Assembly (NCBI RefSeq): GCF_947166265.1
Contig: NZ_CAMVDO010000002.1
Coordinates: 62,001 to 126,000, forward strand
Direction of reading: 5' to 3'
Length of the DNA stretch: 64,000 nt
From: an uncultured Fibrobacter sp.
GTDB taxonomy: Bacteria; Fibrobacterota; Fibrobacteria; Fibrobacterales; Fibrobacteraceae
Shown here: positions 35,874 to 46,013 of the stretch, piece after piece
Numbering within the stretch: the stretch's first letter is position 1
Layout: each line of letters starts with the position of its first letter
Notes under the pieces: generated by a model
Database searches by the model: none
Told to the model about the DNA's origin: nothing
Seen by the model: the letters and a program-made list of their open reading frames with translations, nothing else
Program-made: the position numbers and the translations under genes

Positions 35874-35903
35874 TCGGCCCTTCGGCATGCTTAGGGACCT
35901 AGG
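35874..35903. repeat. Interspersed repeat, CGGCCCTTCGGC family (copy 2)
   Basis: TCGGCCCTTCGGCATGCTTA followed by GGGACCTAGG. It lies just upstream of the TPR gene. Confidence 0.65.
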
Positions 35904-35923
35904 GTCCGCAGAGACAAAACATC

Positions 35924-35965
35924 TTTCGTCTCTCGTCTGTAGGGCGAAGCCCGTTCTTTCGTCTA
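35924..35965 (+). repeat. TTTCGTCTCTCGTCTGTAG repeat (copy 1)
   Basis: TTTCGTCTCTCGTCTGTAG, a GGC-GAAGCCC hairpin, then GTTCTTTCGTCTA. Found again at 45078-45122 and, inverted, inside the M18 gene at 41340-41384. Here it lies 5 bases from the stop of the glycosyltransferase gene. Confidence 0.85.
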
Positions 35966-40965: not shown

Positions 40966-42231
40966 TTACAGATAGAAAGCAGACACCAGGGCGATCATGC
41001 CTTGGTGATCTTTTTTTGCCGTCATTTCGCGAATGCTGTGCATGCTGAGCATCGGTTCGCCAATGTCTACCGTCGGAATTCCAAGACTCGCCGAAATCGC
41101 GGGCCCCACCGTAGAACCGCAGGGCATATCGTTTCGCATCACGAAAGTCTGGTACGGGATATTATTTTGTCCGCAAAGCAGCTTGAAGCGGGCATTCGAG
41201 AAAACATCGCTGGCATAGCGCTTCTGGGAATTCATCTTCAACACGACACCGCCCCCCAGCACCGGAGCATGGTTGCTTTCATGCTTCTGGACAAAATTCG
41301 GATGACAGGCATGGGCCATGTCGATGGAAAGCGCAAAACTAGACGAAAGAACGTTCGCAAGCTCGCTACAGACGAGAGACGAAAGTGACTTGTCATTCTG
41401 AGCGGAGCGTAGCGAAGTCGAAGAATCTAGAGCTGCAGACATAGCAACGTTTTCTAGTACGCTCTTCAAGAAATTGCCGGCGGCTCCTTCACGGGTCTCG
41501 GAGCCAACTTCCTCGTTATTGAAGAAGGCGGCCACCTGGAAATCATTTTCAAGGGCATCCGCAGCGGCAAAGGCCTCGACAACCGCATGACAGCTGCTCA
41601 GGTTATCGAGACGCCCCGAATAGATCCACTCCTCATCAAAGCCACCATACACGGCAGGCTGCGCATCAAAAAGCTGAACATCAAAATCAAGAAGTTTCGA
41701 GCCTGCGGGTAGCTCCGCCGAAAGGGCATCGACAAAACGTTCCTTACCGCCTACGGATGTCCAAAGGGCATTCAGGTCCGTCTGCGGATTCACCTTGAGA
41801 CCATCCTGATTTACGCCACGGTTCAGGTGAACCGCTAGTTGCGGAATGCGGAAAAGACGGTTTCCACGAATCAATTTCGTCTGCAGTTTTCCATCGAGTT
41901 CATAAGCGAGGAGTCCAGCATAACCCAGGTCGCGGTCCAGCCAGCTCGTAAAAAGCGGGCTTCCATAAATTTCAGGATGGAGCGTCCGAACACCGGCGGC
42001 CAAAGCATCCGGATTCGGGGTAATCTTCAGCGTCGGATAATCCGTATGCGCAAGCGCGATCCTGAACCGAGAGTCAGAACAAACTTTCCTAGGCAGTCGA
42101 ACGGCGATCAACGCCCCGCCACGTTCGAACAAGCGAACGGAATTATCTTTTTTCGCTCCCAAAACAGTCTTCAGGGATTCAACCGTATGGTACGGCGTCA
42201 CGGAACCATTCAAAAATTCAAGAATATCCAT
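40966..42231 (-). CDS. M18-family aminopeptidase with two in-frame interspersed repeats
   Basis: A zinc metallopeptidase that removes N-terminal residues from peptides. Ligands and catalytic marks: His/Asp in LAHTDYPTLKI, Glu pair in FNNEEVGS, SIDMAHACHPN, DMPCGSTVGP, and the late LSMHSIREM. Between VLENVA and SSFALS about 29 codons (about residues 268-297) are made of two interspersed repeats: DSSTSLRSAQNDK comes from the TGTCATTCTG family and LSSLVCSELANVLSS from the TTTCGTCTCTCG family. The gene stays open. A TATATT box ends 6 bases before the ATG. Confidence 0.9.
   Translation of the reverse strand: MDILEFLNGSVTPYHTVESLKTVLGAKKDNSVRLFERGGALIAVRLPRKVCSDSRFRIALAHTDYPTLKITPNPDALAAGVRTLHPEIYGSPLFTSWLDRDLGYAGLLAYELDGKLQTKLIRGNRLFRIPQLAVHLNRGVNQDGLKVNPQTDLNALWTSVGGKERFVDALSAELPAGSKLLDFDVQLFDAQPAVYGGFDEEWIYSGRLDNLSSCHAVVEAFAAADALENDFQVAAFFNNEEVGSETREGAAGNFLKSVLENVAMSAALDSSTSLRSAQNDKSLSSLVCSELANVLSSSFALSIDMAHACHPNFVQKHESNHAPVLGGGVVLKMNSQKRYASDVFSNARFKLLCGQNNIPYQTFVMRNDMPCGSTVGPAISASLGIPTVDIGEPMLSMHSIREMTAKKDHQGMIALVSAFYL
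41340..41384 (-). repeat. TTTCGTCTCTCGTCTGTAG repeat inside the M18 gene (copy 2)
   Basis: On the minus strand TTTCGTCTCTCGTCTGTAG, then a CGAGCTTGCGAAC spacer hairpin, then GTTCTTTCGTCTA: the same ends as the intergenic copies at 35924 and 45078. Confidence 0.9.
41391..41430 (-). repeat. TGTCATTCTGAGC repeat inside the M18 gene
   Basis: On the plus strand TGTCATTCTGAGCGGAGCGT then AGCGAAGTCGAAGAATCT. The 18896 copy has the same TGTCATYCTG...GCGTAGCGA layout. It sits 6 bases from the other repeat. Confidence 0.75.
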
Positions 42232-42286: not shown

Positions 42287-42341
42287 TCGGCCCTTCGACA
42301 AGCTCAGGGACCTTAATGGGGTTGGTGAGCCTGTCGAACCA
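42287..42341. repeat. Interspersed repeat, CGGCCCTTCGGC family (copy 3)
   Basis: TCGGCCCTTCGACAAGCTCA, GGGACCTTAATGGGGTTGG, then TGAGCCTGTCGAACCA. The longest complete-looking copy; its ends are partly complementary (TTCGACAAGCTCA / TGAGCCTGTCGAA), so it can fold back. Confidence 0.75.
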
Positions 42342-45077: not shown

Positions 45078-45122
45078 TTTCGTCTCTCGTCTGTAGCTCG
45101 CTTGCGAGCGTTCTTTCGTCTA
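45078..45122 (+). repeat. TTTCGTCTCTCGTCTGTAG repeat (copy 3)
   Basis: TTTCGTCTCTCGTCTGTAG, a GCTCGCTTGCGAGC hairpin, then GTTCTTTCGTCTA. Its final CTA, read on the minus strand as TAG, is the stop codon of pyrF. Confidence 0.88.
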
Positions 45123-46013
45123 TAATTGGCAGGCCTCCGCCAATTTCTCCAGAGCATCTACGCAGTCGTTCGCGAAGTTCTCGGGATGTCCGCTGCGCTG
45201 GTAGGCAAAATTCAAGCCACTGGAGCTGTTGAGGACGTGGAACTTGCGCTTGCCACCGCCGTTCGCGATAGCCGTAAGCACGGTCTTTGCATCACCGCCC
45301 TGACCGCCCGGGACACCAGGAATAGACACCCCCGGAATCAGGAACGGAATTTCATGCTTGTGGGCAACCGTGTAGGCGGTAATCTTCTCGAGTTCTTCAG
45401 GATGCGTCGCACCGACAACGGCACCGAGGTAGCCGAGGTTTGCGTCCCATTCCATAATCTTGTCAGCCACGGAATAGAAGGCTTCGGCGTTGTCGCGCGG
45501 ATCGTCGCTGCGGACCACCGGCAAGTCCTGGAAGTCATGGGCGCCCTTGTTGCTCGTGCGGAGCAAAACGTACGCACCGTTTTCGGAATTTTCGCGGATG
45601 AACGGGCCAACGGAATCGGCACCCATCCAAGGGGACACCGTCACGGCATCGGCCTTGTACACATCGTAAGCGGCAGTCGCATAGGCGGCGCTCGACTTAC
45701 CGATGTCACCGCGCTTTGCATCCAAAATAACGGGGATGCCTGCGCTGCGATAATCAGCAATCAGCTGCTGCAACACGAGCATCGCCTGCACGCTCACGCA
45801 TTCGTAGTAAGCGCTATTCGGCTTCACCACGGCGGGCGTCACGTTACGCTTGAGGCAACATTCCAGAATTTCGGAATAGAAACGCTTGATTTTGTCTTCG
45901 GCGGAACCTTCGGGGCAGCACGGGTCGATCAGCTTCATGACCGGATCCATGCCGAGGCAAATCGGGTTGCCGCACTTGGCGATACGTTCTTCTAAACGGG
46001 CCTGAAAGTTCAT
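45120..46013 (-). CDS. pyrF: Orotidine-5'-phosphate decarboxylase
   Basis: Makes UMP in pyrimidine synthesis. The catalytic DAKRGDIG and VKPNSAYYE, PWMGADSV and LLRTSNKGAHDFQ mark the type-2 (about 290-residue) subgroup. It starts within the trmH-like gene's stop (TAATG). Its stop codon comes from the interspersed repeat at 45078-45122, which suggests the repeat trimmed or altered the extreme C-terminus. Confidence 0.93.
   Translation of the reverse strand: MNFQARLEERIAKCGNPICLGMDPVMKLIDPCCPEGSAEDKIKRFYSEILECCLKRNVTPAVVKPNSAYYECVSVQAMLVLQQLIADYRSAGIPVILDAKRGDIGKSSAAYATAAYDVYKADAVTVSPWMGADSVGPFIRENSENGAYVLLRTSNKGAHDFQDLPVVRSDDPRDNAEAFYSVADKIMEWDANLGYLGAVVGATHPEELEKITAYTVAHKHEIPFLIPGVSIPGVPGGQGGDAKTVLTAIANGGGKRKFHVLNSSSGLNFAYQRSGHPENFANDCVDALEKLAEACQL

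Follow-up and report, generated by a model that had tools for sequence, protein, structure and literature searches.

This locus raises the question of how interspersed repeats came to lie, in frame, within the gene for a conserved M18 aminopeptidase, and how the encoded enzyme accommodates them. The window considered here is the whole stretch of DNA that was analyzed, 64,000 nucleotides from an uncultured Fibrobacter sp.; the named records that match at 58-87% identity are likewise from Fibrobacter. Its features relevant to this question are the following.

40966-42231, minus strand: M18 (aspartyl) aminopeptidase gene, host of the repeats, 421 aa, single copy, identified by Pfam, PDB and alignment
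41340-41384, minus strand: repeat R1, TTTCGTCTCTCGTCTGTAG-CGAGCTTGCGAAC-GTTCTTTCGTCTA (reverse complement), read as SSLVCSELANVLSS, residues about 283-297
41391-41430, plus strand: repeat R2, TGTCATTCTGAGCGGAGCGTAGCGAAGTCGAAGAATCTAG, giving LDSSTSLRSAQND (residues about 267-280) when its minus strand is translated
41340-41430, minus strand: composite R2-spacer-R1 module, about 90 nt
45078-45122, plus strand: R1 copy with palindromic core CTCGCTTGCGAGC, overlapping the stop of ORF 45120-46013
35924-35965, plus strand: R1 copy with core GGGCGAAGCCC, outside coding sequence

Repeats within the M18 gene

The ORF product matches the Pfam profile PF02127 (E 4.8e-100), and the gene was found in all 80 of 80 Fibrobacter genomes, with one copy in the genome of the window. 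Residues H62, D209, E240, E241, D304 and H398 are invariant in the M18 alignment and are candidate metal or catalytic residues of this family; the family match and the conserved metal-site residues together place the protein in M18. M18 proteins of known structure align at query residues 4-262 and 294-420, flanking residues 263-293 without matching across them. Only 9 residues separate the two aligned blocks in the Pseudomonas M18 protein in the PDB, and R1 and R2 fill the corresponding gap of the query. It had been predicted that both repeats lie in frame between conserved parts of the protein, and the ORF, Pfam and PDB alignments bear this out. An AlphaFold model of the protein (mean pLDDT 76.9; best PDB match 4njr) keeps the M18 fold. 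R2 is modeled as the end of a helix (254-271) and a low-confidence loop (pLDDT near 52), and R1 as a predicted helix (281-296; pLDDT near 57) that runs into the strand preceding SIDMAH. In this model the loop looks like a position where variable sequence may be tolerated, and it probably lies at the surface. Because the gene is single-copy, open and conserved, M18 proteins with repeat-derived loops are presumably made and active.

The repeat identity of the segment is clear. The copies at 41340-41384 and 45078-45122 are reverse complements with 93% identity over 45 nt, and 35923-35942 is a 20-nt arm shared exactly with the copy in M18. The original prediction, that the M18 copy has the same ends as two intergenic repeats, thus holds as to the ends but not as to the setting of the second repeat: the terminal TAG of the 45078 copy (45120-45122, minus strand) serves ORF 45120-46013 (minus strand) as its stop codon. 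That ORF was likened by eye to orotidine-5'-phosphate decarboxylase. A 17-nt R1 core occurs three times in the window and never in shuffled windows; genome-wide there are 17 exact and about 95 loose matches, against one for the reversed-pattern control. The adjoining R2 (38-40 nt) is indeed a second family, as proposed, with eight copies at no more than 3 mismatches; a stricter R2 pattern is present in 55 of 80 congeners, with controls at zero. An Rfam search of the window returned no match. The repeats were also said to add some 29 residues. They do lie inside the loop, but the net gain is nearer 21 when measured against congeners that carry R1 only (45 versus 24 residues). Had all M18 relatives carried this segment, it might have been native sequence; it is missing from some of those in the genus and is not universal, and this objection therefore fails.

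The R1 family and its placement

R1 comprises about 50 copies in the genome of the window, 48 of which were read at the DNA level. Each is 42-48 nt long. The flanks do not vary; the stem, bounded by GTAG and CGTTC, is different in different copies yet still pairs. Among 81 copies with an 11-nt core (genomes G001-G017), there are 18 different 5' arms, and 97.5% of stem positions are paired, versus 55.7% after shuffling of the 3' arms (at most 65.4% in any of 5000 rounds). The commonest loops are GAA, GTA and GCA, and the variable hairpin is usually closed as a C-GNA-G triloop, a structure that is very stable in single-stranded DNA. R2 and R3 (a further family, described below) share this plan of constant ends around a variable, paired center. 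An inverted heptamer array lies close to some of the R1 copies. What purpose a hypervariable but paired stem serves is a separate and testable question.

Of the 80 Fibrobacter genomes, 63 contain R1; outside Fibrobacter it was present in two genomes of a single genus and absent from the remaining 31 genomes of the order that were searched. One genome of this second genus of the family (G110) holds 61 copies, while other genera of the family hold none or one; a transfer of the element family is possible. Two of 2.9 million viral contigs carry one R1-type element each. Neither a clean empty site nor a target duplication could be defined in the genomes compared, and no full-length REP-associated transposase (RAYT) was found in the genome of the window, the assembly of which is about 97% complete. 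The sole Y1_Tnp (PF01797) match in that genome is a short fragment in an 87-aa frame (C29:22489-22662), about 1.3 kb from an R1 copy; a link between R1 and a RAYT on this basis was rejected, as the fragment instead resembles an IS200-type remnant. A literature search for repeats in Fibrobacter found nothing.

Outside coding sequence, R1 has a marked relationship to gene ends. For 24 of the 38 non-coding copies, a gene that points towards the element has its stop codon no more than 8 nt from the element's right end, and in about nine of the 38 the TAG supplied by R1 apparently acts as the stop codon itself. Ten of the 48 copies lie in frame within coding sequence, as judged from a codon-usage scan and from protein families in which the repeat falls between conserved parts, an assessment confined to these 48 R1 copies. 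Their hosts are M18, FeoB, an RluA-family pseudouridine synthase, MnmE, HrpB, GluQRS, a CbiX/CysG fusion, an aminotransferase, RsmG and an arginase-like protein. A search for the repeat in other coding sequences, which the original prediction had called for, thus yields in-frame R1 in at least nine further genes of the genome. Codon scores are positive on both sides of R1 in nine of the ten; HrpB is marginal by codon usage but clear by family match. The coding copies occur in both orientations and in several frames (SSLVCSELASVLSS, DERTLASSLQTRDE, RRENARKLATDER), and for GluQRS and MnmE the PDB relatives align across R1, with the R1 part poorly matched. Most bacterial DNA is coding, and the 21% of R1 copies found in coding sequence therefore represents strong avoidance of genes.

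Coding copies also differ in the length of their cores. A 13-nt core with a flipped arm is found in seven of ten copies within genes, versus two of the 38 others (Fisher p 5e-5, in a post hoc test). We considered whether the coding copies have no hairpin and rejected this, since folding pairs the 13-nt core with the constant arm. Core length is 1 modulo 3 in eight of ten coding copies versus eight of 38 elsewhere, and preservation of the reading frame through core length offers a simpler explanation for the excess of 13-nt cores.

Turnover of the M18 loop and similar loops

The M18 loop was read in 79 of the 80 Fibrobacter genomes. It ranges from 16 to 54 residues and contains a recognizable repeat in 36 of 79, drawn from nine families that occur alone or combined. 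Besides R1 and R2, these are:

R3: GTCATCCTGGAG...CGATAGGATCCA
R4: AACTCCGAATTC heptamers
R5: TCATTGCGAG...GAAGCAATCTC
R6: TCGACCTCGCTCAGGATGAC
R7: GGTTGGTGAGCCTGTCG
R8: TCAAAGCGAGCTTGCGAGCGA
R9: CGTCTCT arrays

R1 to R4 are multicopy across the genus with reversed-pattern controls of zero, whereas R5 to R9 are called by motif only. On a tree of M18 built without the loop, 15 label states require 24 changes, a figure that depends on a single-gene tree with some weakly supported branches. Swaps between close relatives are directly visible: the sisters G015 and G056 are 96% identical outside the loop and carry different repeats (R1 and R4, respectively), and G055 (R7) and G023 (no repeat) are 96.2% identical outside it. 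The R4 loops of two distant clades hardly differ. The M18 loop is a hotspot of turnover, at which unrelated repeats replace one another between species. Loops with R1 only are 24-27 residues long, versus 16-36 for loops without a repeat, and R1 alone does not lengthen the loop; part of this history may therefore be replacement rather than insertion. Genomes with R4 in the loop have high R4 copy numbers (Mann-Whitney p 4e-7, in a test that ignores relatedness). The R4 family (an AATTCCG-type heptamer array) reaches 57-97 matches in G006, G007, G039, G040, G049, G050 and others, and is nearly absent elsewhere.

The filled loop itself appears to be shared between species. A tract of about 140 bp spanning the whole loop (41336-41475, minus strand) differs by 2 mismatches between the genome of the window (G000) and G040, whereas the surrounding M18 DNA is only about 75-82% identical (about 78%). 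The two genomes are not sisters on the M18 tree, where support is limited. This pattern is consistent with a recent exchange through homologous recombination. About 15 further sites, spread over 14 Fibrobacter genomes, contain the R2-R1 composite (query positions 51-141); one of them lies in the RluA-family gene in the genome of the window, where it is read in the opposite direction.

Two other proteins have hotspots similar to the M18 loop. In nearly every Fibrobacter species examined, differing interspersed repeats fill an RsmG loop that extends from HIADSLVPYIYI to WADMGAGAGCP: depending on the species, these are R1 (in two frames), R3, CTCAGGATGAC-type repeats or the REP-like GGGATGAC. The shortest form of this loop, from HIADS to GCP, is 31 residues. 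In the RluA-family pseudouridine synthase, the linker that joins the S4 domain to the catalytic domain is likewise variable and repeat-bearing. Indel-rich loops of Fibrobacter proteins can thus be repeat DNA, with the potential to mislead alignments, trees and annotation. The availability of 80 related genomes allows the process to be followed: which loops accept repeats, how frequently families replace one another, whether the reading frame is under selection, and how loops travel between species.

Origin of the loops and comparison with known repeats

We consider it highly probable that these are non-autonomous, REP- or MITE-like repeats that permissive protein loops can accommodate, and that their turnover comes about through insertion and the recombination of short tracts. 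By default, R1 lies directly after stop codons. Elements would occasionally land in, or recombine into, a surface loop tolerant of length changes; since most of their frames are free of stop codons, repeats entering the loop would be read as a helix-loop segment, and the enzyme would survive. The loop before SIDMAH is one such permissive site, which members of at least nine families have entered, replacing each other or being lost, in different species. Insertion probably proceeds via a single-stranded hairpin and a mobilizing enzyme, with ectopic recombination as another possible route of entry. Homologous recombination in the conserved flanks could then carry a filled loop, as a short tract, from one species to another. 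Under such a process, the loops are probably close to neutral, and M18 proteins that bear them would retain their activity.

A bolder proposal is that constant flanks and a hypervariable, always-paired hairpin define an active element class with an uncharacterized mobilizing enzyme, for which a few protein loops are standing docking sites where the elements are exchanged like cassettes, making repeat DNA a constant supply of new protein segments throughout Fibrobacter; we regard this as conceivable but rather unlikely. It is less likely again that the loop has been domesticated, with repeat-derived helices kept to tune the enzyme, for example through oligomer contacts or substrate access by the metal site. 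The loop is almost unchanged between G000 and G040, and the near identity of R4 loops in distant clades likewise favors this reading, but recent transfer also accounts for both, and a single required function is difficult to reconcile with unrelated sequences of 16-54 residues and with the absence of any recognizable repeat in 43 of 79 genomes. Slightly weaker still is the case for a role at the RNA level, in which a hairpin within the gene would act on mRNA decay or translation and the peptide would be a by-product. The almost invariable pairing of the stems agrees with such a role, as does the fixed orientation of most non-coding copies within 8 nt of a stop codon. However, R1 in M18 is oriented opposite to the copies at gene ends, R4 loops are not hairpins, and the frame is kept in every case.

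We give very little credence to the possibility that native M18 sequence was the source of the repeat family, or that the likeness is due to chance: although R1-only loops are of ordinary length, R1 is missing from most M18 loops of the genus and present in dozens of copies elsewhere, other repeat families occupy the same site, and shuffling yields no comparable matches. Assembly error or a decaying pseudogene is just as improbable, for although these are draft genomes of many contigs, the frame is open, the catalytic residues are invariant in all aligned genomes, the same loop appears in two separately assembled species, and M18 is a single-copy gene present in 80 of 80 genomes.

The preferred reading, of tolerated non-autonomous repeats, invites comparison with the palindromic elements of Rickettsia (RPEs), to which the original prediction likened the M18 repeats. 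RPEs (RPE-1 and others) are 105-146 bp long with long terminal inverted repeats, and besides intergenic copies there are in-frame fusions to many conserved protein genes; in one reported case, an RPE-bearing guanylate kinase is still active (PMC2229807). R1 likewise has intergenic copies as well as in-frame copies within several unrelated genes, and the comparison is apt as to the way of working. It breaks down on size, as R1 (42-48 nt) falls far below the RPE range, R2 (38-40 nt) and the composite (about 90 nt) are also shorter, and on architecture, given the constant flanks and short variable stem of R1 and the use of one Fibrobacter site by many families. ERIC, YPAL and other enterobacterial MITEs (PMC2229807) are similarly non-autonomous and form in-frame gene fusions, but they are longer, most have target duplications, and their sequences and hosts are different.

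Two classes of REP are closer in form. CGTC-tagged REPs include RPE-4 and RPE-6, and intragenic copies of them are known (PMC3733652). Compared by description only, R2 and R3 resemble this class in beginning with TGTC-AT and in their complementary arms starting with AT (ATCCT/AGGAT, ATTCT/AGAAT); R3 has the full plan of tag, arm and tail (TGTC-ATCCT...AGGAT-CCA), and the tail of R2 is CTA. The stems are unlike, however: the REP stem is a continuous 8-9 bp with a 4-5 nt loop, whereas R2 and R3 have 5-bp outer arms, an internal loop and an additional inner hairpin that varies in sequence and in length. GTAG-tagged REPs are intragenic in Opitutus, Thauera and others, and recB of two Xanthomonas species was struck at about the same site (PMC3733652). 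R1 is similar to these in having GTAG directly at a short stem-loop, in lying mostly directly after stop codons and in often supplying TAG. It differs in that nearly every copy continues for about 15 nt of constant sequence beyond GTAG, such that the tag is not the end of the element, in the lack of a neighboring full-length RAYT, and in its hypervariable stem.

The M18 repeats had been set apart from the Rickettsia elements by their occurrence in a different phylum, but intragenic short palindromic repeats are known in several phyla, well beyond Rickettsia (PMC3733652), and the phylum alone is therefore not what is new. What Fibrobacter adds is a genus that is not mentioned in the text of that survey (PMC3733652), hypervariable paired stems, and individual loops that many families have occupied again and again. 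In this rumen genus, selfish DNA repeatedly writes new protein sequence at one spot in M18. Previously, selfish repeats in proteins were known chiefly from isolated examples in Rickettsia, Wolbachia and a few genomes rich in REPs. The window also contains another interspersed repeat, of the CCTTCGACAAGCTCAGGGACC type, at 35874-35900 and 42287-42313 (89% identical over 27 nt); one of these two copies lies just upstream of the M18 gene.
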